This document shows positions 24,103 to 42,602 of a stretch of DNA of 47,695 bases, piece after piece. Origin of the DNA: a virus. Both the position numbers and the translations under genes were made by a program. The stretch spans positions 1 to 47,695 of the IMG/VR virus record IMGVR_UViG_3300017714_003053. One strand, given 5' to 3'. The notes beneath the pieces were generated by a model. That model did not search any database, was not told the origin of the DNA, and worked only from the letters and a program-made list of their open reading frames with translations. The number at the start of each line of letters is the position of its first letter. Positions within the stretch are counted from its first letter, which is position 1.

Positions 24103-24441
24103 ATGAATGAAATTCAAAGATTAAAAGAGCTTTCAGGTATTATAAATGAAGCCCCTAAACCCATCGCAAAAATAAGTCAAGATGAGTTTATTGGCTGGAA
24201 ATACTCAGATCGTGATGATTTAATAAGTCTAGGACATACTGTAACAGATTCATTAAAAGTAGATGGTACATATACCCATGATTTAAACAAAGAATGGGAA
24301 CAAACTGGTTATATACATTTAGCTATGATACAAAATTGGGACGAAATTAAAGCACAGATTCCAAATGAAGATTTAGAACAGATTTTAGCAGACGAAGAAA
24401 TTGAGTCACCAGCAACATGGTTAGACGTAGATTGGATATAA
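24103..24441 (+). CDS. Predicted head-packaged protein, unknown function
   Basis: 112 aa from the ATG at 24103 (AGGAGACATACA upstream); an in-frame ATG 10 codons earlier lies in the promoter and is rejected. It starts MNEIQRLKELSGIINE followed by AP, a helical N-terminus ending in I-N-E, which fits a T4 gp21-type cut site. The mature part is acidic with WDEIKAQIPNEDLEQIL. No family recognised. Confidence 0.6.
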   Translation: MNEIQRLKELSGIINEAPKPIAKISQDEFIGWKYSDRDDLISLGHTVTDSLKVDGTYTHDLNKEWEQTGYIHLAMIQNWDEIKAQIPNEDLEQILADEEIESPATWLDVDWI

Positions 24442-24442
24442 T

Positions 24443-25705
24443 ATGAAATTTAATGATATAGATCAAATACCAGAAGCAGGCGATATAGTAGGTTTAGAAT
24501 TTGGCGATGTAATGATTGAATCTAAATTTGTAGAATATTTAGATGATGGTATTGTAGTAGAAATGGCTCCTAAAGGCGAACAACTATTAAAAGAATTCTT
24601 ACCTCTTATACCTGCGGCAGTATGGGCAGGCGGTGCGGCTTGGAGTGCATATGATGCATGGCAGGCAAAGAAAGCATACGACAGAGGTGAAATCACAAAA
24701 GGTCAATTAGCAGGAAAAATTGGTACTGATGCGGCACTTACAATTATAGGTGGTGGTATAGCAAAAGGTGCAGTAAAAGCAACCAAAGCAGTAGCAAAAA
24801 TGTTTAAGAAAAAACCAGATGTAAAAATTGATACGCCAGATGTAAAAATTGATACACCAGCAGTAAAAGCAAAAATTGATACACCAGCAGTAAAAGCAAA
24901 AGTTGATACACCAGCAGTTACAGTACCTAACACAGTAGCTAATAAATCTTTAACTAAAACACAACGTGATGCATTTTCTGGAACAGGTGGAGCAGTAGCA
25001 GGTAAGACAACTAGTAAAGTAGTTAAAAAGAAAGCTGATGATATTAAAAAGAAAACTCCAGTAAAGAAAAAGAAAAAATTTGGTAAAGGTTTAGGCGGTA
25101 GTGGTTTACCTAATCAAACTATAGATACTAATTTAGCAGGTGTAACGCAGAAATATGGATTTGGTGGATTAAATGCTTCTGTACAATACGAAGATAAAGA
25201 TGAGCCATCATTAAAAGGCTTTGATGCAAAAACACAAGCAGAAATAGTAAAATTAAAAGCACGTTATCCACAAGCTGAAAATTTATTATCAGCATTACTA
25301 GCAGATGTTGCGGCATCTAAATCAAGTGGACAAAATACTGATCACAGACAAGATATTAAATTTAAAGATTTAGAAAAACGTTTATATGATTTAGAACAAA
25401 AACTAAATTCAAAAGTTACTGAAGAACTTACTGAAGCGGAATATCAAGGACGAAAAGTTAAACTAGGCAAACCAATGCGTGGTGATGTTAAAAAGTTTAA
25501 AGTATATGTCAAGGACCCTAAGACTGGAAACGTTAAGAAAGTTAACTTTGGACACGGCGGAACAAGTGCTAAATCAAAAGGTGAAAAGACTATGAAAATT
25601 AAAAAGTCTAACCCAGCAAGACGTAAAAGTTTTAGAGCAAGACACAACTGTGATAATCCAGGACCACGTACAAAAGCACGTTACTGGTCATGTAGAGCTT
25701 GGTAG
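24443..25705 (+). CDS. Predicted head protein with Lys-rich repeats and basic Cys C-terminal module
   Basis: 420 aa. It begins MKFNDIDQI, then a strand-rich segment. A hydrophobic region (about 54-70 and 93-110) is followed by repeats of (K)xDTPAVKAK (125-155) and very basic stretches (KKKADDIKKKTPVKKKKKFGK). The last 85 residues carry a module I know from marine T4-like phages: KLGKPMRGDVKKFKVYVKDP ... RRKSFRARHNCDNPGPRTKA, ending YWSCRAW. The two cysteines and dense positive charge suggest DNA contact in the head. Enzyme activity is not evident. Confidence 0.65.
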   Translation: MKFNDIDQIPEAGDIVGLEFGDVMIESKFVEYLDDGIVVEMAPKGEQLLKEFLPLIPAAVWAGGAAWSAYDAWQAKKAYDRGEITKGQLAGKIGTDAALTIIGGGIAKGAVKATKAVAKMFKKKPDVKIDTPDVKIDTPAVKAKIDTPAVKAKVDTPAVTVPNTVANKSLTKTQRDAFSGTGGAVAGKTTSKVVKKKADDIKKKTPVKKKKKFGKGLGGSGLPNQTIDTNLAGVTQKYGFGGLNASVQYEDKDEPSLKGFDAKTQAEIVKLKARYPQAENLLSALLADVAASKSSGQNTDHRQDIKFKDLEKRLYDLEQKLNSKVTEELTEAEYQGRKVKLGKPMRGDVKKFKVYVKDPKTGNVKKVNFGHGGTSAKSKGEKTMKIKKSNPARRKSFRARHNCDNPGPRTKARYWSCRAW

Positions 25706-25707
25706 TT

Positions 25708-25905
25708 ATGGATATTGAAAGACTAAGAGTATTAGCAGGAGTAAACAAATCTGTTGCTGAATCTCCTGAAGGATCTAACATAAGTATTATTGGATCTGAA
25801 AAAGCAAAAATTCAAAGAGAACGTAAGATTAAACCAGGAACAGACGAATGGTTTAAATTGTGGTTTTCAAGACCACATCTTACTGGTGAAAAGCCAACAA
25901 AATAG
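25708..25905 (+). CDS. Small predicted head-packaged protein
   Basis: 65 aa from the ATG at 25708; a TTG three codons earlier overlaps the previous gene. It starts MDIERLRVLAGVNKSVAE followed by SPEG; V-A-E fits a head-protease site. The rest ends with FSRPHLTGEKPTK. Function unknown. Confidence 0.55.
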   Translation: MDIERLRVLAGVNKSVAESPEGSNISIIGSEKAKIQRERKIKPGTDEWFKLWFSRPHLTGEKPTK

Positions 25906-25916
25906 GAGACAGCATA

Positions 25917-26303
25917 ATGGGTACCGAAGCCCTTTTACTTTTTGCACTGATGTGTAAACACGCAATTTGTGATTTAGCAATTCAGTCATTTAGAACACCA
26001 ACCGACAAATTTAAATACCTCAATAAAGGTTTGCATATACATTCATTAGATCACGGAATAGGTGCGTTCATTGTACTACTATTCTTTATAAACCCGTTGT
26101 ACGCCGCTGTATTTGCGTTTATTGACTATATTTTCCATTGGCATATTGACTTTATTAAAACAAATATTACTAGAAAATATGGTTGGTATAAAGAAGGCAA
26201 GGCTTTTTGGAGATTACAAACTTTAGATCAAATGGCTCACTATGCGACATATGCTCTAATAGTGTATTTGATATTTAAATGCTCGTTATGTGTAATTAGA
26301 TAA
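25917..26303 (+). CDS. DUF3307-like membrane protein
   Basis: 128 aa, three to four transmembrane segments. Conserved polar positions of the DUF3307 family are visible inside them: CDLAIQS, H-x-H-x3-DH (about 41-47), FHWHIDFIK (75-83) and LDQMAHY (101-107). The family's role is unknown; the His/Asp pattern in the membrane hints at a metal site. Its stop TAA lies within the next late-type promoter. Confidence 0.75.
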   Translation: MGTEALLLFALMCKHAICDLAIQSFRTPTDKFKYLNKGLHIHSLDHGIGAFIVLLFFINPLYAAVFAFIDYIFHWHIDFIKTNITRKYGWYKEGKAFWRLQTLDQMAHYATYALIVYLIFKCSLCVIR

Positions 26304-26306
26304 ATA
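26299..26306 (+). promoter_or_regulatory. Late-type promoter GATAAATA, leaderless layout
   Basis: The octamer ends five bases before the ATG of the 1233-aa gene at 26312, and it overlaps the preceding stop. No ribosome binding site fits between them. Confidence 0.65.
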
Positions 26307-26311
26307 CAGTT

Positions 26312-29300
26312 ATGCGTATAAACGAAGTAGATAGAGAATTAACTCAAACCGAACTAGATCAGCTCGAAACCTTTGCAGATAGATTATTTGCAAAAGTTGG
26401 TATTGATGTAGAATTTACACGACATTTTTTAGATAGAGTAAATGATGAACGTAATGTAAAACAGATTACGGCAAGTGAGCTGACTCGTTTATTCAAACAA
26501 GAATATAAAAAATGGGGCAAAGATATTGTCAAACTTGGCCCAGATGCTGAAGCAGTACTAAAAGATTTAGCAACAGACGTAAACATACCATTTGCTTTAC
26601 GTTGGGACAATGCAAACAACGAACTAGATCTAATTGCTAAAACTGTAATGCGTAAACAAGATTTTAAAACCAGCAATCAAGAGTTTGCTATAGAGGAAGT
26701 TGTTCCTATGCTTTACCATGCAACATACAGACCTTTCCTAGAAAGTATTATGAAGAATGGTTTAGGCGGTAGTGGAGCTCAAACGCAATGGGAAGATAGT
26801 AAGCCGGGTTATGTATACCTTGCTAAAGATCCAGAGATTGCTAGTAGCCATGCAGAAGCAAATGAAGAAGTACCAGATGAATACATTGACGACATTGTTG
26901 TGTTGAGTATAGATGCTAGTCAACTAGACCAGGATAACCTAGAAAATGATCCAAATGTACAAGATGATGATAGTACACTAGCATACAAAGGCATAATACC
27001 AACCAGTGCATTTAGTATACAAGAATCATATAAATTAAGCAATACACAAAGTAAATTAGTATTTGAATCTATACAACAACTTAACGAAGCAGGACCAGCC
27101 GCAATAGCAGTACCAGCTGGTATAGTAGCATGGCAGGCTTATTCAGCCTACAGATATTCAAAAGCGGCATGGTGGGTAGCTCAAGGCGCTTATGCAACAG
27201 CAACAACAGCCGCGGCATATATTGTTGCTAATGAAGCTGACTTTAGTTGGCTTGAGAGAAAAATGGCGGCATCAGCTTTATTAGCCTATGAACTATGGGA
27301 TAAAGTTAGAGGTGTAGAAGATTTAAGTAATGAGATAGTAAGTGATACTAATGATAAATTAAATTCAGAGCTAGTAGCAGGTACTGAAGTATTAACCAAA
27401 CAAGCACTCGAAACTAATAGTATAAGTGCAGAAACAGCAGAAATTATTGCTCAAACTAATGCGGCGGCAGATAAAATGAATCAGCAAATTGCTGATGGTG
27501 TTGATCCAGAAACTATTGCTAAAGATTATGTAGCTTCTTTAGTTACAAATAAAGCGGCAGAAGAAACTGTTAAACAAATAGCAGTAGTAAGTCCAGAAGT
27601 AGTATCAGCAATACAGACAGAGTTAGAAAATAATTATCAAGATGCAAGTGGGCAACGAGCATCAGAAATTGCCGCACAACAAAAAGCAGTAGAATTAGCA
27701 CAAGCAAAAGCAGATGCACAGACAAAAGCAAGTGATGCTAATCTAATAGCATTGGCAAATAACGTAGCAAAAGCACAAGCAGATGCTAAAGCAACAGAAT
27801 TAAGTGATAAAAAATTAATAGCACTTGGGCAAACAGTAGCCCAAGCAAATGCAGATGATAGAGCAACTAAAGCAAGTGATGAAAAGTTAATAGCACTTGG
27901 TAATGCAGTAGCCCAACAACAAGCAAGTGATGCACAAACAAAAGCAAGTGATGACAAATTAATAGCACTTGCTAACAAAGTAGCGGCCACACAAGCACAA
28001 CAAGCTAATGACAAATACCAAAATGATAAAATAGATGATATAGCAACCAAGTCAGATGCGGCGGCTAAATCAGATGCACAAACAAAAGCAAGTGATGCTA
28101 ATCTAATAGCAAAAGGTCAAGCATATGCACAAGCACAGGCAGATGCAAAAGCAAAAGCAGATGCGGCGGCTAATGACAAATATCAAAATGATAAAATAGA
28201 CAATATAGCAACCACATCAGATAATAATTTTGTCCGAGATTTAGAAAAAAATCCTTTACCAGTAGCTGACTTTACGCCAAAAGATATTACAACTACTGGA
28301 GATACAACAGTAAAAGAACCAATTAAGGTTGGAACTCCACCATCTGTAATTGTACAGCCAGAAATTCCAGCAGTAGATTATCCTGATACAAATATAGGAA
28401 CAAACGTAGTAGACAAACCAGTTAATATTCCACATGATAGAACAAAAATACTAGTTCCACCATTTGTAGCAAATCCTCCTAAGATTGACACAAAAGCTAT
28501 TAGTACTGCTAAAGTAGATGCAAAAAATAAAAAAGGTGGAAAAAGAAAAGGTGGCGATGGTAGTATGATGGGATACAATGATTTATACAAAACAAACTTA
28601 TATAAATGGACACAACAGTATGGAACATTTGAAAATGACAAATTAAATAAAATGTTACTTGGTGAAAACAGTATTAGTACTAGAGTTAGTAATACAAGAA
28701 ATAAAACTGGAAATGGTACAAATCAAACATTCAGTAAGTATATAAGCAAGACTTCTGATACAGGCGGTACATCGTTAAGTAAAGTATCAAATTTAAATAA
28801 GACAGCCAATGGAACTACAGGTACTACTACAAAAAGATTTATAAGACCAGGAGGAAGTGGAACAAATACAACATATGACCATGGAACTGGAAAAGTTACT
28901 AGAACTAATGTTCAACTAAAAGGTCCACAAAGCTGGATGTATGATAAAAAGTTAAACTCGTCAGTAACCAAAGAAGCTCAAGCAGTAGCAGGTGGAAAAG
29001 TACATAAAAATATTACAGGGCATAACTTAACTTGGAAAGGCGTTAAACAAGAAAAAATAGATTTTGAATTAATTAGTATTGATAATGCTACTAAAAGTGT
29101 TAAGTTAGGAATACTTAGACCAGAAGAATTTGCAGGTGAAGTAGCTAATGTATCATTTAAAACACTTCGTAGAGGACCATTTGTAAAAACAGAATTAAAT
29201 GAATCAATTATTATGGAAGGCGGAGCAATGCCAGGCGTTGGTGCAATCCATATAGATGAAATAAATCCAACACTAGAACAACTAGAAAAATCATTAGGAT

Positions 29301-30013
29301 TAGATCTAAAAGATTTTACATTAGGTAGTGTAGGTAAAAGACAGTTCAGTGGAGACATTGATGTAGCGTTGAATCTCCCACCTGAAGAACTTCCAGCGTT
29401 TGTTGAGAAGCTTAAAAAGAATCCGTTGATTAAAGATATAGCAAAGTCAAGTGTTATAATGACAAAAGTACAAATTCAGAACTTTGATAAATCTAAATCA
29501 GATGGAAGACCACGTACAGGATTTGTACAAGTAGATTTCATGCCAGGTGATCCGGGTTGGTTAAAAACTTACTTCCATTCACCAAGTGAAGATGAATCAA
29601 AATACAAAGGTGTATTCCGTAACGTAATGGTAGCTACTATGGCCGCAGTTCATAATAGAGATGATAGTCAAGCTGAAGTAGAAGATGGAAGACCTTTAGA
29701 AAGTAGACGTTTTATGTGGAGTCCCACAGATGGATTAGTACGTGTTCTACGTACTCCAGTTCCAGCAAAAAATGGTAATGGTTATACCAAAAAGAACCAA
29801 AATAAAGTTATAGACGGTCCATGGAAACAAGCTGATGAAATCGCAAAACAACTTGGGTTAAATAGTGCAAAGGACTTAAACAGTTTTGAATCATTGTTAG
29901 ATGCAATGAAAAAGAGCTATACTCAAGAAGAACAGAAGAAAGTCATTGATAATCTAAAAGATAGTAAAGTAGTCCAAGATATTGGAATACCAGACGAAAT
30001 TAAAGATCTCTAA
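26312..30013 (+). CDS. Giant multidomain head-effector candidate: ART-like plus nucleotidyltransferase-like
   Basis: 1233 aa starting MRINEVDREL. Domain 1 (about 15-125) has FTRHFLDRVNDERN and KTVMRKQDF, a module I know from marine T4-like phages. Domain 2 (about 130-250) looks like an ADP-ribosyltransferase fold: LYHAT (134-138), the GYVYLAKDPEIA strand and VVLSID. Then come a hydrophobic segment (260-310), an Ala/Gln/Lys coiled-coil repeat region (about 440-635) and a low-complexity linker with KKGGKRKGG. The C-terminal domain (972-1233) has GS at 1005-1006, GDID at 1014-1017 and VDF with D1075, the pattern of nucleotidyltransferases. T4 packages its ART Alt in the head and injects it; this protein may be the counterpart. 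Activities are predicted only. Confidence 0.7.
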   Translation: MRINEVDRELTQTELDQLETFADRLFAKVGIDVEFTRHFLDRVNDERNVKQITASELTRLFKQEYKKWGKDIVKLGPDAEAVLKDLATDVNIPFALRWDNANNELDLIAKTVMRKQDFKTSNQEFAIEEVVPMLYHATYRPFLESIMKNGLGGSGAQTQWEDSKPGYVYLAKDPEIASSHAEANEEVPDEYIDDIVVLSIDASQLDQDNLENDPNVQDDDSTLAYKGIIPTSAFSIQESYKLSNTQSKLVFESIQQLNEAGPAAIAVPAGIVAWQAYSAYRYSKAAWWVAQGAYATATTAAAYIVANEADFSWLERKMAASALLAYELWDKVRGVEDLSNEIVSDTNDKLNSELVAGTEVLTKQALETNSISAETAEIIAQTNAAADKMNQQIADGVDPETIAKDYVASLVTNKAAEETVKQIAVVSPEVVSAIQTELENNYQDASGQRASEIAAQQKAVELAQAKADAQTKASDANLIALANNVAKAQADAKATELSDKKLIALGQTVAQANADDRATKASDEKLIALGNAVAQQQASDAQTKASDDKLIALANKVAATQAQQANDKYQNDKIDDIATKSDAAAKSDAQTKASDANLIAKGQAYAQAQADAKAKADAAANDKYQNDKIDNIATTSDNNFVRDLEKNPLPVADFTPKDITTTGDTTVKEPIKVGTPPSVIVQPEIPAVDYPDTNIGTNVVDKPVNIPHDRTKILVPPFVANPPKIDTKAISTAKVDAKNKKGGKRKGGDGSMMGYNDLYKTNLYKWTQQYGTFENDKLNKMLLGENSISTRVSNTRNKTGNGTNQTFSKYISKTSDTGGTSLSKVSNLNKTANGTTGTTTKRFIRPGGSGTNTTYDHGTGKVTRTNVQLKGPQSWMYDKKLNSSVTKEAQAVAGGKVHKNITGHNLTWKGVKQEKIDFELISIDNATKSVKLGILRPEEFAGEVANVSFKTLRRGPFVKTELNESIIMEGGAMPGVGAIHIDEINPTLEQLEKSLGLDLKDFTLGSVGKRQFSGDIDVALNLPPEELPAFVEKLKKNPLIKDIAKSSVIMTKVQIQNFDKSKSDGRPRTGFVQVDFMPGDPGWLKTYFHSPSEDESKYKGVFRNVMVATMAAVHNRDDSQAEVEDGRPLESRRFMWSPTDGLVRVLRTPVPAKNGNGYTKKNQNKVIDGPWKQADEIAKQLGLNSAKDLNSFESLLDAMKKSYTQEEQKKVIDNLKDSKVVQDIGIPDEIKDL
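27713..28213 (+). repeat. Repeats in the coiled-coil region of the giant gene
   Basis: A 39-base unit at 27713-27751 recurs at 28074-28112 with one change. A second unit of about 40 bases at 28010-28050 recurs at 28174-28213 with few changes. Further degenerate copies encode (T)KASDxxLIAL. They build a long Ala-rich coiled coil. Confidence 0.75.
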
Positions 30014-30047: not shown

Positions 30048-31226
30048 ATGCCAGAAAAATACTGTATATACACGAATAATTTCACCTTTGTAGACAATGA
30101 TGGGTATGTTGCTTTATGTTGTAAAAACCTAAAGAACAAACTTCATCAATATCATATAAAAGACTACAAGTTGAGTGAAATATGGAATAGTCCTGAAATG
30201 CATAGCGTCAGGCAAGAAATTGCTAGTGGCGGAGAACCTATGGGTTGTTTTAAGTGCTATGATCCAGAACGTGATGGTGTACGTAGTTTTAGACAAAAAG
30301 CATTAGGTATGATCAACAAGGGTGTACCCTTTGAAGATGAAAAAATACACGCATTAGATCTAAGACTTGGTAATGTATGCAACCTTAGATGTGTAATGTG
30401 TTTTGCTGGTAACAGTAACAAAATTTTAAAAGACCATAAGCAAATGGCAGATCACTTTAATTGGAAAGAAGGTCGACTAGAAAAAGAAGCAGAAAAATAT
30501 CACAAAAGCAATTATGATTGGAGTGATGACGAACGTGCTTGGGAAAACATTATCACCAGTGTAGATAAAAATCTAAAACACGTTTATCTAGCAGGTGGCG
30601 AACCTTTTTATTTAAAAAACTTTCCAACAACTGTAGAACGTTTGGGGTCGTTAGCACCCAATGCTAGGTTTGTTATTAATTCAAACGGTACAAGACTATT
30701 AAGAGAAAAAGATCTAAAACAACTAAAAAAGGTTGAAAACGTATTCATTAGATTTAGTGTTGATGGTTGGGGTGGTGCAGATGAATGGATTAGACAAGAT
30801 ACAAAATGGGAAGAAAAACTACAAGTAATGGATCAGTATTACAAACACTTTAAATTAAGAGTTTGGGATGTTACTGCAAATAGTTTAGGTGTTAGACAAA
30901 TACCAAAATTAGTAGAATATCTTTGGGAGCATTATCCTGAAGCAAAAGTACAAATTAGACCCGTAGTAAATAAAACAGAAATATTGATGGAAAATATTCC
31001 TGATAAACTTAAAGCAAAGCCTTTGGAATTCTTTGAAAAATATAAACACAAACTTGAAGGTGTTGATCATGTAATTAATGAAATGCGTAAACCATTTAAC
31101 CCAGATCCTAACAGAGCAAAAACAGTTAAGCATTGGGTTGATTATTATGATAATACCGGTGTAGTAAAATTAGGTGACTTTGATCCAGAGCTTTCAGATT
31201 GGATCCAGAGCAATGGACAACAGTAA
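30048..31226 (+). CDS. Radical SAM enzyme with N-terminal twitch/SPASM-like domain
   Basis: 392 aa. N-terminal cluster cysteines are C6, C24/C25 and C67-x2-C70. The radical SAM core has C111-x3-C115-x2-C118 in GNVCNLRCVMC, and AGGEPFYL is the SAM motif. An INSNGT strand follows. Same design as the genes at 6977, 8154, 31213 and 44784. No ribosome binding site precedes the ATG, which lies at the predicted +1 of a perfect promoter. It overlaps the following paralogue by 14 bases. Confidence 0.85.
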   Translation: MPEKYCIYTNNFTFVDNDGYVALCCKNLKNKLHQYHIKDYKLSEIWNSPEMHSVRQEIASGGEPMGCFKCYDPERDGVRSFRQKALGMINKGVPFEDEKIHALDLRLGNVCNLRCVMCFAGNSNKILKDHKQMADHFNWKEGRLEKEAEKYHKSNYDWSDDERAWENIITSVDKNLKHVYLAGGEPFYLKNFPTTVERLGSLAPNARFVINSNGTRLLREKDLKQLKKVENVFIRFSVDGWGGADEWIRQDTKWEEKLQVMDQYYKHFKLRVWDVTANSLGVRQIPKLVEYLWEHYPEAKVQIRPVVNKTEILMENIPDKLKAKPLEFFEKYKHKLEGVDHVINEMRKPFNPDPNRAKTVKHWVDYYDNTGVVKLGDFDPELSDWIQSNGQQ

Positions 31227-32430
31227 TTTTTGCAGTATACCTTGGATACACTCAGCGACTAAAACAAACGGTGCAAGTAGAGTATGTTGTTTAATGAGCA
31301 ACTACGAGCAAGGCAGTGGCGGTCAAACAGGACACAACTTCAAAACAGATACTATAGAAGAAATACACAACAGTGAATATACTCGTAATCTTCGTAAGAA
31401 GTTCTTAAAGGGTTATAAGCCAATAGAGTGTAATACGTGTTGGGTTAAAGAAAAGAATGGTGGTCAAAGTAGACGTATGTTTACTAACAGGATGTACAAG
31501 CATCTAATTGACTATGAGAAAGCATTAAAGATCACAAAAGAAGATGGAAGTACAGAACAAATGCCTGTATATTGGGATTTACGTTTTGGCAATCTATGTA
31601 ACTTAAAGTGTGTTATGTGTGGACCACAAAGTAGCAGTATGTGGTACAAAGATTGGGCTCATATGCATGACACAGATCATTTTGAAGACTCTGGCGAAAA
31701 AATATTTTTTAAAAATAAAGGAGTTGATAGTGATGTATATGATTGGTATACAAGTAGCAACTTCTGGGAACAAATGGAAAAGAATATAGATCAACTAGAA
31801 CATATATATCTAGTTGGTGGCGAACCTATGCTCATAGAACAACACTATGTATTCTTACAAAAGCTAATAGACAAGGGCGTAAGTAAAAATGTTACACTAG
31901 AATACGATACAAATATTACAAATGTACATCAAAGAGCTATTGAACAATGGAGTAAATTTAAAACATTGATGCTAAGAGTTAGTATTGACGATTATGGAGA
32001 ACAAAATAATTATATACGTTTTCCTAGCAAATGGTACAAACTAGATGAAAACATAAAACGTATTAAGGAACTAGTACCAAATACAAAAGTTGAAATAAGT
32101 ATAACTTGGCAAATGTTAAATGCATATACATTTTTAAATTTAGTAGATCATTTTAAAGATTATTATATTAATATTAGAATATTATCAGCACCAGAGATAT
32201 TTGATCCAAAACACCTACCAAAACAAGCTAAATTAGAGCTTATTGATATGTACAATAACTCTATATACAAAGATAAAATAAAGCATTTAATAAGCTATCT
32301 AACAAATAATTTAAACAATAATGAACTATTATATAACGAATCAGTAGATTTTCTAAACAGACTGGATGTTTTACGAGGTACAGATTGGCCAAAAACATTC
32401 AAGCAACTGCATAAATCGATAAATATATAA
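31213..32430 (+). CDS. Radical SAM enzyme with N-terminal twitch/SPASM-like domain
   Basis: 405 aa from the ATG at 31213. N-terminal C7, C25/C26 and C73-x2-C76; core C129-x3-C133-x2-C136 in GNLCNLKCVMC; VGGEPMLI. It is paired with the gene before it, as 6977 is paired with 8154. The pairs are more like each other in the core than in the variable C-terminal part, where substrate choice would lie. An upstream in-frame start at 31174 would lengthen the overlap without adding conserved residues. Confidence 0.84.
   Translation: MDNSNFCSIPWIHSATKTNGASRVCCLMSNYEQGSGGQTGHNFKTDTIEEIHNSEYTRNLRKKFLKGYKPIECNTCWVKEKNGGQSRRMFTNRMYKHLIDYEKALKITKEDGSTEQMPVYWDLRFGNLCNLKCVMCGPQSSSMWYKDWAHMHDTDHFEDSGEKIFFKNKGVDSDVYDWYTSSNFWEQMEKNIDQLEHIYLVGGEPMLIEQHYVFLQKLIDKGVSKNVTLEYDTNITNVHQRAIEQWSKFKTLMLRVSIDDYGEQNNYIRFPSKWYKLDENIKRIKELVPNTKVEISITWQMLNAYTFLNLVDHFKDYYINIRILSAPEIFDPKHLPKQAKLELIDMYNNSIYKDKIKHLISYLTNNLNNNELLYNESVDFLNRLDVLRGTDWPKTFKQLHKSINI
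32418..32425 (+). promoter_or_regulatory. Late-type promoter GATAAATA
   Basis: It lies within the last codons of the radical SAM gene. Predicted start near 32431, giving a 13-base leader with AAGGAG. Confidence 0.65.
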
Positions 32431-32443
32431 AAGGAGCATACTT

Positions 32444-32896
32444 ATGAAAGTTAATGAAATACTATCAGAACAAGGTGTTATAGTAAAAGGCGTAAACACA
32501 ACAGTTGATGTTCAACCAGGTGAAACAGAACGTCAAGCGGCCAAACTATTCCCAATGAATAAAGGCGGCAAACCAACATCTTTAATAAATGATAAAGTTC
32601 GTAAGAATAGCAATCCACACGTATTATACAATCTTGGGTTAACAGAAGAACAAATAGTACTATTAGAAAAAGTAGTAAAACAATCAAAGCCTATGAAAGT
32701 GTTAATGAACCTAGCAAGTAGAAAAGACAACAATGCATTTCCAGTAAAAATGGGTGATGTATTAGTTGATGTTACTCCTACCGTTGCTAGAAGAGTTATT
32801 CAATATTACTTTGACGCAACTGGATTTAAACAAAAAGATATTGAACGTGCTTTGGATAATGCTATGGAATTTAAAAAACTTGTAAAGGAGATTTAA
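32444..32896 (+). CDS. Predicted head-packaged protein, unknown function
   Basis: 150 aa. It starts MKVNEILSE followed by QG, a clear match to the shared head-targeting start with an L-S-E cut site. The body (residues 20-150) is a compact alpha-helical domain with GLTEEQIVLLEKVV and ATGFKQKDIERALDNAMEF. No catalytic motif. Late-type promoter of its own. Confidence 0.65.
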   Translation: MKVNEILSEQGVIVKGVNTTVDVQPGETERQAAKLFPMNKGGKPTSLINDKVRKNSNPHVLYNLGLTEEQIVLLEKVVKQSKPMKVLMNLASRKDNNAFPVKMGDVLVDVTPTVARRVIQYYFDATGFKQKDIERALDNAMEFKKLVKEI

Positions 32897-33095: not shown

Positions 33096-33443
33096 ATGAG
33101 AATAAATGAAATTGTAACAAAAAAGACAGGTGCAGGTACAGTAAAAACTGTAGGTGGAAATGAGATTTCTAGAAGCACTCCTAACATAGGTGGATCGCAA
33201 ACAACACAATACGCAGATGGATCTATTAAAAATACATTCAATACTAACGCAGGTGGATCATCTATAGATATTACAAAAGTAAATGGAATCAAAACTAACA
33301 CAGATATATCTTCTGGTAACATTGCAGTAAACACTACAAATACTGGTAATGGAAAATACAAAGTAGATAAAGCCACTTATAAGCTAGGCGGCGGCCAAGG
33401 TACACTAGTAGCACAGCCAGGAAAGTTTTCAATAAGGAAATAG
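33096..33443 (+). CDS. Predicted head-packaged protein, low complexity
   Basis: 115 aa. It starts MRINEIVTKK, one of the best matches to the shared N-terminal peptide. The remainder is Gly/Thr/Asn-rich (IGGSQTTQYADGSIKN, NTTNTGNGKYKVDKATY) and probably beta or unordered. Function unknown. Confidence 0.6.
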   Translation: MRINEIVTKKTGAGTVKTVGGNEISRSTPNIGGSQTTQYADGSIKNTFNTNAGGSSIDITKVNGIKTNTDISSGNIAVNTTNTGNGKYKVDKATYKLGGGQGTLVAQPGKFSIRK

Positions 33444-33445: not shown

Positions 33446-33721
33446 ATGAAAATAAATGAAATCACAACTGGAATAGTAATGCCTAAAGTAACCGTTGCTA
33501 ATCCAGATGCAATTAGAGCAAACAACAAAGCATTGGGCTATAAAGAAAAAGTAATTACTACAAAGGCTTTTGATAAAGTACGAAATCAACAATTAGACAA
33601 ACAAGCATCACAGGATGTGAGGCAAGGAAAAGATATGAGTACAACTTTTAAATTTAAACCTAACAATGCTAATCTTAGTACTAATATCCAAGCACCTGTA
33701 GTTAAAAAGCCAAGAGTGTAA
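33446..33721 (+). CDS. Predicted head-packaged small basic protein
   Basis: 91 aa. It starts MKINEITTG, nearly the same first six residues as its neighbours, then a Lys/Asn-rich, probably flexible body ending VVKKPRV. Two bases separate it from the preceding gene. Function unknown. Confidence 0.6.
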   Translation: MKINEITTGIVMPKVTVANPDAIRANNKALGYKEKVITTKAFDKVRNQQLDKQASQDVRQGKDMSTTFKFKPNNANLSTNIQAPVVKKPRV

Positions 33722-33725: not shown

Positions 33726-34751
33726 ATGAAAATTAACCAAATCATAAATGAAGGTGTAGATTCAAAAGCTGAGATATACGTTGACATGGACGGCGTACTA
33801 GCAGACTTCTTTGGAGTATGGACTAAAATGGTTGGTGTTAAAAATTGGAAAGAAGTCAAAGACGTTGATTCTGCATTGGATATGATTAGAAGTCAAAAAG
33901 ATTTTTGGATTAATTTACCACTTACACCAAATGCTTCAAAGTTATTAAATTCAATTAAAAAAGTAAAAGGAAACTATACTATATTAAGTTCTCCTTTACC
34001 AGATGATCCAAATTCAGAACCACAAAAACGTGAATGGGTCAAAAAGATGCTTTCAGGTTTTGCACCTAAAAGAGTTATTATAACGCATAATAAAAGTGCG
34101 TATGCAAAACAACCTGACGGAACTCCTAATGTATTAATTGACGACTATGGAGACAATATTCAAAAATGGGAAAATGCAGGTGGAATAGGAATACAACACT
34201 CAGATAAAAATGCAGATGCAACAGTTTCAAAATTAGAAGAAGGTGATTTTGTTCATGCAATAAGTAGATTTATGAACAGGAGTATACGTCCTGGTATGTA
34301 TAAACGAGCGGCAACAAAGTTTCATGAATGGTTAAAAGATCAAGCACCTTATAGACATAGCCTAGGATATTATGCTATGGAGTGGGGGCATCAATATAAA
34401 AATATAGACTGGAGAAACTTAAAACAAGCATATGAAGTTATGTTTGGTGATGATGTACTAGTTGAAAATAAAGAACCTAAACTTGTAAAAGATAAAAAAC
34501 TAAAAAATTTAAGAAGTATGGATAAGCCTACAAAATATGAAAAACGTAAAAACTATCAACAAGCAGATGAAAATTTTGCAGACGGTAAAGTAAAAGGCAA
34601 ATCAAAACCAGGCAGAGTGAAAAAAGCAGGTGCAAGTTGTAACGGTAGTGTAACAGAATTACGAGCTAAAGCAAAAAAAGCCAGCGGTGAAAAAGCAAAA
34701 ATGTATCACTGGTGTGCTAATATGAAATCAGGTAAAAAGAAAAGTAAATGA
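33726..34751 (+). CDS. Head-targeted HAD / 5'-nucleotidase-like protein
   Basis: 341 aa. It starts MKINQIINE followed by GVD (I-N-E site), then the HAD motif YVDMDGVLADF with D20 and D22, as in 5'(3')-deoxyribonucleotidases. TILSSPLP is motif II and VLIDDYGDN the acidic motif. From about 190 a helical domain follows, then a basic linker. The C-terminal module (about 303-341: SCNGSVTELRAKAKKASGEK ... YHWCANMK) is known to me from other marine phage proteins. A nucleotidase carried in the head could act on host nucleotides at once after injection; this is inference. Confidence 0.75.
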   Translation: MKINQIINEGVDSKAEIYVDMDGVLADFFGVWTKMVGVKNWKEVKDVDSALDMIRSQKDFWINLPLTPNASKLLNSIKKVKGNYTILSSPLPDDPNSEPQKREWVKKMLSGFAPKRVIITHNKSAYAKQPDGTPNVLIDDYGDNIQKWENAGGIGIQHSDKNADATVSKLEEGDFVHAISRFMNRSIRPGMYKRAATKFHEWLKDQAPYRHSLGYYAMEWGHQYKNIDWRNLKQAYEVMFGDDVLVENKEPKLVKDKKLKNLRSMDKPTKYEKRKNYQQADENFADGKVKGKSKPGRVKKAGASCNGSVTELRAKAKKASGEKAKMYHWCANMKSGKKKSK

Positions 34752-35326
34752 TATTAAAAGAAGATTATAGATCAATTGTTGAACAAGACAATGGTGTAAT
34801 AATAAAAACTTTTAAAGATGGTTCACAGTTAAGTCCAGAATCGTTTAATGACGAATGGAAGCAACATATAAACAACTTTGGAAGGCTATATGGACACTTT
34901 CCAAAAATATTAGAACTTTCTAAAACAAGAATTGTTATGGAACAAGTACATGGAGCACCTTTTACTAAAACACGTACAGAAAGTTATAAACATTCTATTG
35001 ATCGACAAATAAAAGATTTTAAATTACTACAGTTTGCTTATTATAAATTTATACATAATTTACTAAAATATAATATAGATTACAAATGTAATTTAGTACA
35101 TAAAGATTTAAATTATAATAATATGTTTTTAAGTGATGGTCGTTGGCATCACGGTGCTAATCTATTAGTTTGCATTGATTTAGATTCAGCAAAAATGTTT
35201 GAGTTTACAGTACCAAATTCTTTCATTGCTTTCCCTCATTCTATTATGCAGGCTGATGCAGAAAGTTTAGAATATCAAATGAATAGACAAGAACAAAGGA
35301 AACTAAAGAAAAAATATGAAAATTAA
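34748..35326 (+). CDS. Kinase-like protein
   Basis: 192 aa. LVHKDLNYNNMFL (116-128) is the catalytic loop pattern H-x-D-x4-N of protein and small-molecule kinases (D120, N125), and CIDLDSA (142-148) supplies the metal-binding Asp. The N-lobe is short: K20 in GVIIKTF may be the ATP lysine, and MEQVHGAPF the hinge. It begins MILKE followed by DY, a very short match to the head-targeting start with L-K-E. The gene overlaps both neighbours. It could phosphorylate a protein or a metabolite. Confidence 0.65.
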   Translation: MILKEDYRSIVEQDNGVIIKTFKDGSQLSPESFNDEWKQHINNFGRLYGHFPKILELSKTRIVMEQVHGAPFTKTRTESYKHSIDRQIKDFKLLQFAYYKFIHNLLKYNIDYKCNLVHKDLNYNNMFLSDGRWHHGANLLVCIDLDSAKMFEFTVPNSFIAFPHSIMQADAESLEYQMNRQEQRKLKKKYEN

Positions 35327-35507
35327 AGATGTATTAAAACTTCCGTCAATTAATATTGGTGATGAAGTATATGTAGGAAGATTTAAAAATCGTAAAGCTA
35401 CAGTAACAGGATTTGGAGTAGATGAGCATAATCAACCCATTTTAAAAACTACTAAAGGTGCACAAAAGCTATTCAAACCAAGAATAGCAAAACTAATGAA
35501 AGAGTAA
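35316..35507 (+). CDS. Small conserved phage protein, SH3/KOW-like
   Basis: 63 aa. It starts MKIKDVLKLPS. The body has INIGDEVYVGRFKNRKATVTGFG, like a KOW or SH3 barrel, and a conserved end KTTKGAQKLFKPRIAKLM that I recall from T4-like marine phages. It may bind nucleic acid or a protein partner. Overlaps the kinase-like gene by 11 bases. Confidence 0.65.
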   Translation: MKIKDVLKLPSINIGDEVYVGRFKNRKATVTGFGVDEHNQPILKTTKGAQKLFKPRIAKLMKE

Positions 35508-36938: not shown

Positions 36939-37424
36939 ATGAAAGTATTTGATATAGTAAATGAAGATGCCGATGGTGGCGATACAATGTCTGGTAATTT
37001 TGCCAGTGTTAGTTTCCCATTGTTTGGTAAAAAGAAGCAGATCAGACGTGCAGTTGATCCTAAAGGATATTTAGGTGACGGTAAACTAAAACTACCTAAA
37101 GTTGGCTATAACAAACCTGTTACAGTTGGCGAGTCTGTAAACGAGAAGGTATATAAAAAGAACCCAGATGATCCAATGGATCCAGAAGTTCATGTACCGG
37201 GTATGGCAGTATACAGTCTTAAAGGTCTTGAAAGAGAAGTTAAAGGTATGTTTGAAGATCTAGCAAAGAAAGCTGAAGGCGGTGATTGGGAAGCTATAGA
37301 TTATTATGTTCACCAACACGGAGTTTTATCAGCTAAAATTAAAGCTATAACAAGTACATATGAAGATTTAGAAAATACAAGAAAACGTGGGGGCAGAGCT
37401 TCTGCAGGTATTACAAAAAGGTAA
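36939..37424 (+). CDS. Predicted head-packaged protein, unknown function
   Basis: 161 aa. It starts MKVFDIVNE followed by DADGG, resembling T4 capsid-targeting peptides with a V-N-E cut site. The mature part has a beta-rich basic segment (SFPLFGKKKQIRRA) and a helical C-terminus ending RKRGGRASAGITKR. A second VGESVNE at about 62-68 could be another protease site. Expected to be late. No family recognised. Confidence 0.6.
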   Translation: MKVFDIVNEDADGGDTMSGNFASVSFPLFGKKKQIRRAVDPKGYLGDGKLKLPKVGYNKPVTVGESVNEKVYKKNPDDPMDPEVHVPGMAVYSLKGLEREVKGMFEDLAKKAEGGDWEAIDYYVHQHGVLSAKIKAITSTYEDLENTRKRGGRASAGITKR

Positions 37425-38240: not shown

Positions 38241-40124
38241 ATGAGAGTACTAGACTTAGGCGAAGCAGGTTACGAAGGACAATCAGAAGCACAAAAACAT
38301 TATTTTCAAATTGATGGAGACATTGATCAAGAACGTGGAATAAACGATACTGATTGTGATCAAATTACAAAACAACTTGTTGATATGGGATTACAAGCTC
38401 ATTGTCAACCAGATGAGTCTAGACACAACGTAGTTCAAATTGATACTTACAGTGGTCATACAACTATTGCAGATGCCTTAGCTAAAGCAGGATATGAAGC
38501 AGACGCAGTTGGTGATCCAAGTGGATTTAAATTCCACGAAGGTGAAGCAAACATTGTAGCAGAAACTCCAAACAAATTTACAAAAGCAGACTTTGATGCA
38601 AATGAAGATAAAAACTATCACACAGAAAATGGTGTTGAATTAGCTAAAGCATTTGGTACTCCAGAAGAAATTGAGCAAATGGAACAGATTGCAAAAAATC
38701 ATTATGCTCGTGGACATATACTATCAGATGAAATTAATGCTCGTAACGAGATTGTTGGCAAATACTTACCTTCATTAGAATCACAAGAAGAAGCAATGGG
38801 AAAAATGAGTGAAGGTGATTTAGGACCAGGCGATATGGAATTATTAAAGCCAATGGTTGATATGGATCCAAAAGTATTAAAAATTTATGCAAAAAACATT
38901 GTTAAAAAATATCCACACCTTAAAGATAATGTTGCAAGACTACTACCATCAAATGAAGCAGTAGTAGAACAAGATATTGAAGAAGATTTTATGGACGATA
39001 GAAAATATCAGTCATTAGAAGAATTACAAGACAAGTTAGCAGATATTAAGAGTCATATTGAACGTCTAGGCGTTATGGACGGTGCTACAGAGTGGGAAGG
39101 TAAAAACCCAACAGGTACAGCCGATATACACGACCAACTTACTACTATGTATAAAAGCATTGACGGACTAATGGGTGCTACTGAAAGAGCATTAAAAATA
39201 GTACCTGCAGAACAAAATCCATCTACACAAGAATTTAAAAAGAAATATGGAATGGACGAAGATGTTAAAGCAGAAGATGTGATGATGAACAAGTATGGAT
39301 TATCAGCAACTAATATTAATGGTAAATTTAGATCATATCAACATGGTAAGCTAACAGGTGAGTTTGATTCAATGAAAGAACTTGCTAAACATCAACAAGG
39401 ATTACTTGATGACGATAATGTAGAAGAAGCTAAAACTAAAAATTGTGGATGTGGACAAGACCCGTGTATAACATACGGAGAGAAAAAAGTAAATGAATTT
39501 GATATCAAAAAATCATTTAATACTGTAGCTAACAATGTTAAACAAAGTTTGTCTAGTGTTGTAGGACAAAATCCATTAAGAGCTAAAGCGAATAAGAATG
39601 CAAACAAAAATGGACCAAGCATAGCAAAACAGATTAATTGGGGTGGAAAATATGAGTCAGAAGATCTTAACGAACTAGATACGTTTGCACCTAAAACAGA
39701 TTACATAAAAGGTCCAGGTGGCGAGTACTATAAAATTGAGTACCGTAACAATAGTGGATTAACAGGACATCGTAAAGATGATAAAGCTAGATTTGTTTCT
39801 ATAAATCCAGCTAGTGATAAAGAAGTTCAAGCATTAAGTTTAGATGATATGATTGCAAAAGGCGATTCAAGTATTCATCAAGGACATGATCATCAAGGTG
39901 GATTACCTTGGAGTGATGAAGACATAGCAGTTTATGCATATGGTGATGATGATTATGAAGAAAATATTCCTAACAATGCAAAAATGAAATTAATTAAAGT
40001 TATGACTACAGAAGCTGAAAAGAAAAAGAAGTCAGAGTTAGGCACGAAAATACGTTCGTGGAGAGAAACAAAAGCTGATATGAAAAAGAAAATAGAGGCT
40101 TCTAAACCAGGAGATAAAAAATGA
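38241..40124 (+). CDS. Large predicted head-packaged protein, unknown function
   Basis: 627 aa from the ATG at 38241 (AGGAGCAGATCA upstream); an earlier in-frame ATG at 38172 lies deep in the previous gene. It starts MRVLDLGE followed by AGYEG, a head-targeting-like start with L-G-E. The body is a string of modules: an alpha/beta segment with ITKQLVDMGLQAHC, a helical acidic middle, KNCGCGQDPC with four Cys in a knuckle-like group (about 407-413), and a C-terminal region with YYKIEYRNNSGLTGHRKDD. The tail is Lys-rich. No enzyme motif seen. Confidence 0.6.
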   Translation: MRVLDLGEAGYEGQSEAQKHYFQIDGDIDQERGINDTDCDQITKQLVDMGLQAHCQPDESRHNVVQIDTYSGHTTIADALAKAGYEADAVGDPSGFKFHEGEANIVAETPNKFTKADFDANEDKNYHTENGVELAKAFGTPEEIEQMEQIAKNHYARGHILSDEINARNEIVGKYLPSLESQEEAMGKMSEGDLGPGDMELLKPMVDMDPKVLKIYAKNIVKKYPHLKDNVARLLPSNEAVVEQDIEEDFMDDRKYQSLEELQDKLADIKSHIERLGVMDGATEWEGKNPTGTADIHDQLTTMYKSIDGLMGATERALKIVPAEQNPSTQEFKKKYGMDEDVKAEDVMMNKYGLSATNINGKFRSYQHGKLTGEFDSMKELAKHQQGLLDDDNVEEAKTKNCGCGQDPCITYGEKKVNEFDIKKSFNTVANNVKQSLSSVVGQNPLRAKANKNANKNGPSIAKQINWGGKYESEDLNELDTFAPKTDYIKGPGGEYYKIEYRNNSGLTGHRKDDKARFVSINPASDKEVQALSLDDMIAKGDSSIHQGHDHQGGLPWSDEDIAVYAYGDDDYEENIPNNAKMKLIKVMTTEAEKKKKSELGTKIRSWRETKADMKKKIEASKPGDKK

Positions 40125-40372: not shown

Positions 40373-40375
40373 ACG

Positions 40376-40555: not shown

Positions 40556-40573
40556 TACTGAAAGAAAACGATT

Positions 40574-40717
40574 ATGAAAATGCATAAAGGATTTGTAGAA
40601 CACGAAACTACTCCAAAGAAAACAAGTATTGGAAACAATACCTCTAGGATTAAAAAGTCTAGTATGAATAAACATAAAAGACGTTCGTACAAACCATATA
40701 AAGGACAAGGAAAGTAA
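40574..40717 (+). CDS. Small very basic conserved phage protein
   Basis: 47 aa (MKMHKGFVEHETT..., ending YKGQGK). The end SMNKHKRRSYKPYKGQGK matches a conserved tail I know from marine T4-like phage proteins. About a third of residues are Lys/Arg/His, so it is likely to bind nucleic acid. GAAAGAAAACG is a weak ribosome binding site. Confidence 0.65.
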   Translation: MKMHKGFVEHETTPKKTSIGNNTSRIKKSSMNKHKRRSYKPYKGQGK

Positions 40718-40718
40718 T

Positions 40719-41513
40719 ATGAGATTAGATCAGCTATTTTTAAAAGAAGAAGACTCTACAGTAAAAACTATGTCAATGCCAGAAAAAGTTTCTGCGTTTG
40801 ATAGATTAAAGCCAGGTCAAGAAATTGGCTTATGGTTTGACTCTGTTATTAGAAGAGCTGATAAGTATAAACCATTTGTAGTAGGTAGAAAAACAAGTTC
40901 AAAATTACGTCCTTTAGAAAAAATTACATTATTACAAAAAAGCAAAGATGGTGGAACAGGTGGAATGAAATACTACCTATACAAAAGAAATGGTGATAAC
41001 GTTAGTTTAGCTATGGGCGATATGGCCGCAAGTTTAGTAGACATTCAAGAATCTAATATTGTAGAAGCTACAGAAACTATTATGGAAAGAATAGTACTAG
41101 ATATAGACTATAGCAGAAATCCAGATGCCTTAATGAAAGCAATTAATGCAATGGCAAGAAGATTAGACCTTACATTAATGAATGCTCCACAATCAATTAA
41201 AGATTTAAAAGAAAAAGGATTTGCTAGAATAGAAGGTAAAGATGCAGACATTATGTCATTTGTAAATTATCTATATTCAAAAGGTATTGAGCCAACATAC
41301 GATATTCAAAATATGGATAAAGTACAAACACCAGATTTAAATGCTAATCCAAATATGCCTGCATTTATAGGCAAGAAAAAAGAACCAGCAACTACTGAAG
41401 CAAAAGCTACAGCAGGACCAGACAAGTGTTGGCCAGGATATAAAAAAGTTGGTACCAAACCAGGCACCGGTAAGAACAAAGGCAAAACAGTCAACGACTG
41501 TAAAAAGGCATAG
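40719..41513 (+). CDS. Predicted head-packaged protein with Cys/Lys C-terminal module
   Basis: 264 aa. It starts MRLDQLFLKE followed by ED, a clear head-targeting-like peptide with an L-K-E site. Residues 20-105 form a beta domain (PGQEIGLWFDSVIRRADKYK and VGRKTSSKLR). A helical part with an ACT-like rhythm follows (IVLDIDYSRNPDALMKAINAM). The end (about 233-264, DKCWPGYKKVGTKPGTGKNK through DCKK) is another short Cys/Lys module shared with other marine phage proteins. No enzyme motif. Confidence 0.62.
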   Translation: MRLDQLFLKEEDSTVKTMSMPEKVSAFDRLKPGQEIGLWFDSVIRRADKYKPFVVGRKTSSKLRPLEKITLLQKSKDGGTGGMKYYLYKRNGDNVSLAMGDMAASLVDIQESNIVEATETIMERIVLDIDYSRNPDALMKAINAMARRLDLTLMNAPQSIKDLKEKGFARIEGKDADIMSFVNYLYSKGIEPTYDIQNMDKVQTPDLNANPNMPAFIGKKKEPATTEAKATAGPDKCWPGYKKVGTKPGTGKNKGKTVNDCKKA

Positions 41514-41522
41514 GAGAGAATA

Positions 41523-42602
41523 ATGAGATTACATGATCTATTTCTACTAAAAGAATATGATGATCTGGAAACAGAAAAGCAAGGTATTATCTCTGCTATA
41601 TCTGGACTTCGTGCTGACAACGAAGAAGATGCTAAACTATTAGATAGAATTTATAAAGTATTAAACACAGGCCAAATTGGTCAAAACATTTCAAACGCAT
41701 TTGCAGTACCATTAGAAGGTGAACCATTAAGTGATAAAGAAAAAGCTCTAGTAGTACAAGATATGACTACTATTATTTCTCAATCAGATAATGATTTTAA
41801 ATCACTTTCAGGTATGACAGATATGTTAGAAAAGGGTGGCGTTGTTGATGTTGGAGCATTAGATTCTCCACTAACTACATTCAGCAATGTATTCCAACAC
41901 CCAGCGGCAGTTAAAGTATTTCATGCATTAAAGAACTATGGAACTGGTAAAAAACAAAAAGGTCCAGGTGAATATGCTTTGGCTTGTTTAACTAACAAAA
42001 TTAGATTAGCGGCAGGTGAAGGTGATCTTGAAGTTGATGGTATTGGAAAAGTAGAATTAAAATCAGCAGTATCTAGCACAGGTGGACGTATAGGTTACGG
42101 TGGTGGATCACAAAAAGCTAAAAGAGCGGTATTAGACAAATACGCAGAAAGAATTCCAACAGTTATGGGTGCTATCGGTGGTAAAGGTGGTTCGTTGGGA
42201 TTAAGTAAATTTGTTCCAGCACTAGCACAAGACTTACCACTTAATGATGCAGACAGTAAAAAATTAAGAGAACAAATTGCAAGTGAACTGTTAACAATGG
42301 ATATGGAAAACTTTGCACAACCAATTATAAAAGCATTTGGTAGTACAGATAGTCCAGAACAAATTGAAGACGAATATTTAAAAGCAAACTTTGCATGGTA
42401 TAAAAATAGAGATGATTTTGACGCTCTATTACTATGTAGTTTCCCTAACGAGAAGTTTGCTATGATTAAAAATGAAAATGATTTAATTGCATTTAGAAGA
42501 GGCGGACAAGCTAACTCAACAAGTATAAGTATTATTCCTACACAAGCAGGTGCAGGAAGAGAGCAATGGGCTCAGCTTACACTAAACAAGGCTAAGGTAT
42601 AA
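41523..42602 (+). CDS. Head-targeted PD-(D/E)XK-like nuclease candidate
   Basis: 359 aa. It starts MRLHDLFLLKE followed by YDD, almost the same peptide as its neighbour. The core (147-200) has GPGEYAL with E150, GDL with D168 and VELKS with E178 and K180. It is followed by GGRIGYG, the order expected for a PD-(D/E)XK nuclease: an upstream Glu, then D, then E-x-K. If packaged and injected it could cut host DNA or resident phage genomes at once. The rest is helical and unrecognised. Nuclease activity is a motif-level prediction. Confidence 0.62.
   Translation: MRLHDLFLLKEYDDLETEKQGIISAISGLRADNEEDAKLLDRIYKVLNTGQIGQNISNAFAVPLEGEPLSDKEKALVVQDMTTIISQSDNDFKSLSGMTDMLEKGGVVDVGALDSPLTTFSNVFQHPAAVKVFHALKNYGTGKKQKGPGEYALACLTNKIRLAAGEGDLEVDGIGKVELKSAVSSTGGRIGYGGGSQKAKRAVLDKYAERIPTVMGAIGGKGGSLGLSKFVPALAQDLPLNDADSKKLREQIASELLTMDMENFAQPIIKAFGSTDSPEQIEDEYLKANFAWYKNRDDFDALLLCSFPNEKFAMIKNENDLIAFRRGGQANSTSISIIPTQAGAGREQWAQLTLNKAKV

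Follow-up and report, generated by a model that had tools for sequence, protein, structure and literature searches.

In phage T4, the unrelated head-internal proteins IPI, IPII, IPIII and Alt carry a short N-terminal peptide with a hydrophobic-x-E end (PMC5694885 and PMC3012670, available sections), and the protease gp21 removes such capsid-targeting sequence (CTS) propeptides of 10-20 residues and cuts Alt after ITE-6 (PMC5694885, available sections). The N-terminal signal of phage P1 DarB, of more than 9 but fewer than 30 residues, suffices to pack a reporter, and DarB itself is believed to pass into the cell and guard against restriction (PMC9024508, available sections). Ejected head proteins of SPN3US and phiKZ have propeptides cut after x-x-E, several of them >100 residues long, with A-x-E as the site in SPN3US and S/A/G-x-E in phiKZ (PMC5694885, available sections). 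Here we analyse IMG/VR virus record IMGVR_UViG_3300017714_003053 (the whole stretch of 47,695 bases, hereafter the window), in which an island of genes at 24.0-42.7 kb encodes proteins that begin with one family of short peptides. We consider it probable (roughly 0.78) that this island encodes head-internal cargo, targeted by a variant T4-like capsid-targeting peptide, in a large T4-type marine myophage related to the Pseudomonas jumbo phage PA5oct.

The locus resembles T4 in its short peptide on unrelated proteins and in a gp21 homologue, found here in the closest long relative. It differs from T4 in its consensus, M[KR][IV]N[ED]I, which constitutes another 'dialect', in the gathering of about a dozen genes in one island, and in multi-domain cargo whose borders lie at cut-site-like triplets. 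The likeness to P1 Dar lies in an N-terminal packaging signal, and unlike the SPN3US and phiKZ propeptides, the predicted ones of the window have 5-16 residues and hydrophobic-x-E. The cyanophage S-CREM2 likewise has enzymes with start peptides, there detected in virions, and its dialect, unlike that of the window, is T4-style.

In the scheme that we propose by extension from T4 and P1, the start peptide (M[KR][IV]N[ED]I... or a second, RLxxLxG type) would dock each cargo on the scaffold core as the prohead forms. A gp21-type protease would cut after hydrophobic-x-E, preferably before A, G or S, and so remove the peptide, and the same protease may separate the beads of multi-domain precursors at borders that are seen in the sequences. 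These beads would be basic Cys/Trp tags, a KptA-like ADP-ribosyltransferase-fold domain and a nucleotidyltransferase-like domain. The freed pieces would remain associated with the DNA and be carried with it into the host, where the enzymes could act before phage genes are expressed; this action is the part of the proposal with the least testing behind it.

A shared start peptide on unrelated proteins

The initial annotation had quoted 12 N-termini as one family, and all 12 were found on the plus strand at 24103-42602. The pattern M[KR][ILVF]x[DEQ][ILV] stands at the start of 11 of the 60 called genes, comprising 11/24 in the island and 0/36 outside. When residues 2-12 of the 60 genes were shuffled in 2000 runs, the pattern appeared 0.13 times on average and at most twice, a comparison that is descriptive and not predictive since the pattern was fitted to the letters of the window's own 11 starts. 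Widening position 6 to [ILVFM] left the window count unchanged, and 0/306 internal Met residues matched. Gene starts in the window and in the relatives G001-G003 come from our own gene caller, which agrees with the annotation for 167/186 matched Melnitz genes.

The start peptide is conserved as protein and not as DNA, with differing synonymous codons and dissimilar sequence in the 20 bases upstream. The proteins had been described as unrelated, and their bodies (residue 13 on) indeed gave no mutual BLAST match at E < 0.01. Because codons vary, upstream DNA is unlike and bodies are unrelated, we regard the shared peptide as genuine and as a feature at the level of protein. At the place equivalent to 33446 (genes are named here by their first coordinate), G001 encodes a different body behind MRINEITKE, and two relatives of the 24443 protein (L049 and L050) begin MRVHNLFTE|T, where the bar marks the candidate cut.

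An (I/L/V)-x-E ending had been proposed for many of these starts, which applies to most (7/11 motif starts have hydrophobic-x-E with E at position 8-11: 24443, 32444, 33726, 36939, 38241, 40719 and 41523) but not to all. The accompanying comparison with T4 is sound, as ipII and ipIII begin MKTYQEFIAEA and their class of propeptide is removed by gp21 (PMC5694885, available sections). A pattern for the T4/Melnitz dialect (MKTYQEFIAE type) matched 0/60 window genes, so the window's peptide 'works like' that of T4 and is a variant rather than a member of the T4 peptide family itself. A capsid-targeting function of the start peptide has indirect support from virion-detected proteins of PA5oct and S-CREM2 and from the protease of the nearest long relative (below).

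The second start type, RLxxLxG, begins the proteins at 24103 and 25708 (Table 1). The pattern [RK]x(0-3)L[AS]Gx is commoner in the first 25 residues of proteins (11 per 32,525 amino acids (aa), the 11 matches not all being alike) than in protein middles (22 per 243,690 aa; p = 0.001). Its C-terminal excess is not significant (3 matches, p = 0.13), and two of these three matches are the very ends of the scaffold gp22 in G001 and PA5oct. PA5oct 127321 (MFNINDILRLAGV), which has the second start type, is marked as detected by mass spectrometry. Comparison of these sequences suggests that the second start type may dock by imitating the scaffold end.

Start peptides among virion-detected proteins of other phages

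PA5oct is distant and partly syntenic, with homologues of 79/260 G001 genes (portal, protease, scaffold and capsid among them) and of 10/60 window genes, several of which are collinear (PhoH, 12484, 13008, DnaJ, ClpA, 18053 and 18437). Detection labels were taken from the 'ESI-MS/MS' (electrospray ionization tandem mass spectrometry) notes in GenBank NC_071039, which mark 93 of 445 coding sequences (CDS). With the window's letters only, pattern starts fall on 5/93 marked proteins versus 2/352 others (Fisher p = 0.005), and on 3/86 versus 0/168 among proteins of >=100 aa (p = 0.038). The widened pattern gives 7/93 versus 2/352 (p = 0.0004); it was written after PA5oct starts were inspected, and p = 0.005 is kept as the main figure. 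The matches include MKINDIITE, on a small gene between portal and protease, and one of the two undetected matches (262106) has as direct neighbours two detected genes, which start MRLNEI and MKILEF.

For S-CREM2, the 52 detected proteins are those of Table 3 of PMC10665884 (available sections), in a record of 219 CDS. T4/Melnitz-style starts occur on 5/52 detected proteins versus 2/167 others, with a p of 0.009 that is softer than it looks: the pattern was built from T4 and Melnitz starts, but after S-CREM2 starts had been viewed. The five are a SAM hydrolase (MKDFDSFLEE), a kinase (MKRFDAFLTE), a cytidylyltransferase (MKNFSSFLTE), gp13 (MKDLHSFLTE) and gp136 (MQTFSMFFSE). Of the 219 S-CREM2 CDS, none (0/219) starts in the window dialect, as phage-specific dialects would predict. 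Under a loose start definition fixed beforehand, the counts are 7/52 versus 8/167 in S-CREM2 (p = 0.038) and 15/93 versus 27/352 in PA5oct (p = 0.014). The available sections of PMC10665884 make no mention of a targeting peptide for S-CREM2, and a putative cytidylyltransferase is also among the S-SM1 virion proteins (PMC3037559, available sections). The Cas9-like virion protein of S-CREM2 (L268 7704-10313, minus strand) has no N-terminal peptide of the usual length and reads SFMAE|A in its first 27 residues.

A prohead protease in the nearest long relative

The window is a fragment, with the portal and protease region lying outside, and a megablast of 20000-44000 against annotated phages returned no match. 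Its nearest long relative is IMG/VR contig 3300026292_000003 (G001; 221,643 bases), with 97% identity on the 41523 protein and 81% over the best segment of 26312. In G001, a gene for a gp21-type prohead protease (Peptidase_S77, E 6.1e-26) lies within a series of head genes that runs portal, gp67-like, gp68-like, protease, scaffold and capsid (names by position and PA5oct homology). Peptidase_S77 was found in 2/6 records searched, G001 and Melnitz. The G001 gp67-like gene, between portal and protease, begins MRFNELAQ, and the core proteins of G001 (gp68-like, gp21 and gp22) are rich in [ILV]xE[ASG] sites (17 versus 4.4).

Modules joined at hydrophobic-x-E

Tag A, the last 89 residues of the 24443 protein, recurs in unrelated proteins and is present in at least 597 IMG/VR stretches; the loci compared comprise the best 80 from one set of 99 and the best 80 from another of at least 597. 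Among 70 distinct contexts from these loci, [ILVMFY]xE|A stands directly before [EK]YxG[RK] in 63, M-A occupies the joint in 4 (in annotated cases, the beginning of a free protein), and 3 deviate (MME|S, LFD|A and TFE|A). In a column count of 72 contexts, E fills P1 in 67 (with M in 4 and D in 1) and A fills P1' in 71; P3 is mostly L/V/I/M, and P2 and P4-P14 are variable. Free tag A is annotated in small phages as Kolga gp56 and CRP-901 gp67, and in more diverged form as CRP-3 gp45 and HTVC026P gp24. In the small siphophage Kolga (L172 3007-3349), gp56 adjoins a free tag-C-like protein, gp57, near a putative head morphogenesis gene. Of 20 tag-A members compared with the Pfam family DUF5754 (PF19058), 14 match it at E <= 1, the best at 2.1e-4, and the window's tag A scores 10.4 bits against a cut-off of 27.4. 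AlphaFold2 gave a low-confidence model of tag A, with a predicted local distance difference test (pLDDT) score of 52.8.

A second recurring module, tag C (CWxGYK), has hydrophobic-x-E within the 10 preceding residues in 30/33 contexts, where 8.0 are expected. Searches of annotated phages by tblastn with tags B and C gave no match. When module borders were restricted to those whose partners start with the motif, 26/38 lay near a site (random mean 9.7, maximum 18 in 2000), a restriction chosen after a null result for all borders, of which the 60 displayed rows held many radical-SAM, terminase and truncated genes. Several cargoes read like protease-split chains of modules. What is new here is this joint rule, cargo as chains of modules with hydrophobic-x-E|A between them, in which the borders are seen in alignments and the cutting is predicted; the literature searches made yielded no description of the start-peptide family or of the joint rule in marine phages.

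Enzyme domains in the predicted cargo

The 1233-aa protein at 26312 reads as a protease-split chain of a conserved N-domain, an ADP-ribosyltransferase-fold domain and a C-terminal domain. In Melnitz, the N-domain (first ~125 residues) makes up a whole protein by itself, which stops close to the same border, and the continuations behind the domain differ among relatives (for example, the window, L034, L035, L036 and L044). The C-terminal domain starts behind LNE|SIIME|GGAMPG; in L035 it is a separate gene with its own start, MKLYELTQQ, and reads LTE|GGAMPG. Its PA5oct homologue, gp253, is ESI-MS/MS-marked (blastp E 6.9e-13). Pfam returned no family above cut-off for the whole protein or for its N-terminal, ADP-ribosyltransferase-like or C-terminal pieces, and PDB sequence searches gave only unrelated chains (best E 0.96 for the ADP-ribosyltransferase-like piece and 0.59 for the C-terminal piece). 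An alanine-rich repeat (KASDxxLIALxxxVAxAQA...) lies at about residues 400-700, between the ADP-ribosyltransferase-like and C-terminal domains.

Residues 127-247 were modelled by AlphaFold2 from 7 close sequences with a pLDDT of 72.8 (other four models 36-64). Foldseek placed KptA, Tpt1 or tRNA 2'-phosphotransferase in 17/18 top rows, the other being 1wfx (APE0204), with a best E of 5.6e-6, and VIA gave Z 12.1 with a root-mean-square deviation of 2.1 over 88 residues. The structural alignment spans residues 88-177 of 8tfz_A, its second half. On this model, residues 127-247 are predicted to adopt an ADP-ribosyltransferase fold closest to KptA/Tpt1. T4 Alt is an ADP-ribosyltransferase, and one cargo here is predicted to contain that fold; as a difference from T4, the window's domain is closest to KptA/Tpt1.

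The KptA-like domain stands directly behind MLIKEIITE|A in L181, ISE|D in L186, LFE|N in L179 and L183, and VNE|E in L185; in L180 no hydrophobic P3 precedes it. The L181 protein (frame around 3977-4610) consists of a start peptide, the KptA-like domain and a basic C-terminal module (DLRAWFGKGKKGGAGGGGW...) behind INE. In annotated phages, tblastn of the domain found 9 records, all Prevotella Lak phages, at 34-37% identity; at another place in their genomes, these 9 megaphage records also encode a relative of the C-terminal domain.

Relatives have further predicted cargo that begins in this way, among it a Zeta_toxin/AAA_33 kinase (1.5e-11; MKIHDILERE), a cytidylyltransferase-like protein (6.9e-6) with the near-motif start MLINEILKE, and a PolyA_pol protein (7.5e-38; MKIFEVTEV), fused to NT5C in one protein. 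In the window, the 41523 protein is a PD-(D/E)XK nuclease candidate by sequence likeness, with G167, D168, V171, E178 and K180 invariant in 5 aligned sequences; it has no Pfam family above cut-off, and its best hit in a PDB sequence search (E 0.11) was an unrelated chain.

Weighing the evidence and alternative explanations

Several results weigh against packaging and processing of the island's proteins as proposed. Virion packaging is known only for homologues or same-motif proteins in PA5oct and S-CREM2, and the S-CREM2 authors, who suggest that enzymes may ride in the capsid, note that they could yet be contaminants (PMC10665884, available sections). For S-CREM2 proteins of >=100 aa, the loose start definition gives p = 0.32. 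Peptidase_S77 was not found in the four other IMG/VR relatives among the six records searched (G002-G005, possibly fragments). The proteins at 26312, 33096 and 33446 carry hydrophobic-x-E only as I-N-E at position 5, the 35316 start has none, and the window's own tags B and C have no clean site, its tag C being among the 3/33 misses. Without restriction, 341/1280 module borders lie near hydrophobic-x-E versus 325.5 at random. The density of [ILV]xE[ASG] in motif proteins does not exceed that of shuffles (11 versus 8.9 in the window and 14 versus 10.3 in G001), and 'other' G001 proteins have 207 sites versus 145.

The best surviving alternative is that the peptide is an assembly signal for structural proteins of the head or neck, the cargo staying in the capsid as core or decoration and none of it acting in the host. 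The position of motif proteins between portal and protease, like core proteins (MRFNELAQ in G001 and MKINDIITE in PA5oct), and the small size and basic charge of several cargoes, such as tag A with +22 over 89 aa, would fit it; enzyme-type domains in the cargo (NT5C and the KptA-like fold, and in relatives Zeta_toxin, cytidylyltransferase-like and PolyA_pol) argue the other way, and we regard this alternative as unlikely. Less likely still, at long odds, is that the peptide addresses proteins elsewhere (a membrane, a phage nucleus-like body or a replication centre) with E-ended triplets arising from composition: bulk site density is indeed not raised in motif proteins, whereas the motif is enriched among virion-detected proteins of two phages and sites fall at module borders. 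Trivial similarity through shared translation-start context, gene duplication or chance is highly improbable: start regions of AT-rich phages are generally rich in K, I and N, but synonymous codon variation and unlike upstream DNA led us to reject a shared DNA context, the unrelated bodies a duplication, and the shuffles, internal Met residues and genes outside the island (0.13 versus 11, 0/306 and 0/36) speak against chance.

Taking the island as head-internal cargo, the proposal of the initial annotation that the phage packs and injects a dozen or more effectors is plausible as to packaging. 'Effectors' is too strong a word, because several of the proteins are small and without recognizable activity and 35316 has no cut site. 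If the reading is right, proteins carried into hosts by uncultured ocean phages could be listed from sequence through start peptide and joint motif, and there would be a reason for the enzymes that recur in cyanophage virion proteomes and that were left as possible contamination by the S-CREM2 authors. The joint rule would also explain how one basic module is both free in small phages and fused behind E|A in large ones.

More tentatively, and with the odds somewhat against it, large aquatic phages may share a virion-cargo code of address-peptide dialects and hydrophobic-x-E|A joints, in which enzymes and small basic modules would be strung into polyproteins, packed, split in the prohead and injected, with modules also free in small phages, as a pre-loaded kit that, from the very start of infection, would counter host defences by repairing RNA and NAD. 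As part of this idea, the predicted cargo in the lineage is weighted towards enzymes of RNA, NAD and nucleotides (KptA-like, cytidylyl/NMN-type transferase, PolyA-polymerase/CCA-type, zeta-type kinase and NT5C).

Features of the island and other genes of the window

Table 1 Features of the predicted cargo island, with positions in the window; a bar marks a candidate cut site.
Feature	Position	Strand	Basis or remark
112-aa protein, second start type MNEIQRLKELSGIINE|A (IINE)	24103..24441	+	RLxxLxG-type starts also in relatives
420-aa protein, start MKFNDIDQIPE|A, body, C-terminal basic tag A behind LTE|A	24443..25705	+	
Tag A (AEYQGRKVKL...FRARHNC...WSCRAW), 89 aa, net charge +22	25436..25702	+	
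65-aa protein, second start type MDIERLRVLAGVNKSVAE|S, outside the initial annotation's list	25708..25905	+	
1233-aa modular protein, start MRINEVDRE	26312..30013	+	
Conserved N-domain (HFLDRVND)	26312..26686	+	phrog_23027 and phrog_14518
Putative KptA/Tpt1-like ADP-ribosyltransferase-fold domain, behind IEE|VV	26690..27052	+	AlphaFold2, Foldseek, VIA
Candidate cut site LNE|A (residues 257-259), after ADP-ribosyltransferase-like domain	27080..27088	+	
Candidate cut site IME|G, with LNE|S just upstream	29210..29218	+	
C-terminal domain GGAMPGVGAIH..., nucleotidyltransferase-like by eye (GDIDV)	29219..30010	+	
150-aa protein, start MKVNEILSE|Q, bead GVIVKGVNTTVDV	32444..32896	+	
115-aa protein, start MRINEIVTK	33096..33443	+	
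91-aa protein, start MKINEITTG	33446..33721	+	
341-aa protein, MKINQIINE|G, NT5C-type nucleotidase, C-terminal basic tag B	33726..34751	+	Pfam NT5C 6.5e-7; phrog_2643 4.7e-28
Tag B (ADGKVKGKSKPGRVKKAGASCNGS...)	34563..34748	+	3 contexts
63-aa protein, start MKIKDVLKL, without hydrophobic-x-E	35316..35507	+	
161-aa protein, start MKVFDIVNE|D, internal SVNE|KVYKKNP bead	36939..37424	+	
627-aa protein, start MRVLDLGE|A	38241..40124	+	
264-aa protein, start MRLDQLFLKE|E, C-terminal CWxGYK tag C	40719..41513	+	
Tag C (CWPGYKKVGTK...), no good site ahead of the window's copy	41400..41510	+	
359-aa protein, start MRLHDLFLLKE|Y, PD-(D/E)XK-like GDLEVDGIGKVELK	41523..42602	+	Alignment of 5 sequences, >=41% identity to the window's

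The window comprises PhoH, DnaJ-like, ClpA-like and tail-fibre-like genes and the island of small and large unknown genes, and it ends on the right at the start of a DNA polymerase gene. At least six radical-SAM-like proteins (CxxxCxxC-type, by eye) are encoded at 6977-8164, 8154-9461, 21875-22783, 30048-31226, 31213-32430 and 44784-46034, two of which sit within the cargo island and have no start peptide. A 192-aa island protein at 34748-35326, with the non-motif start MILKEDYRSIVEQ, has weak RIO-kinase similarity (E 0.001, below cut-off). The 85-aa protein at 44523-44780, also not of the motif type, is a homologue of the MS-marked PA5oct 216266 (E 3.4e-19). At the left end of the window, a transfer-messenger RNA (tmRNA) gene (27-404) encodes the tag AEDNFAIAA; a tmRNA is annotated in Melnitz too.

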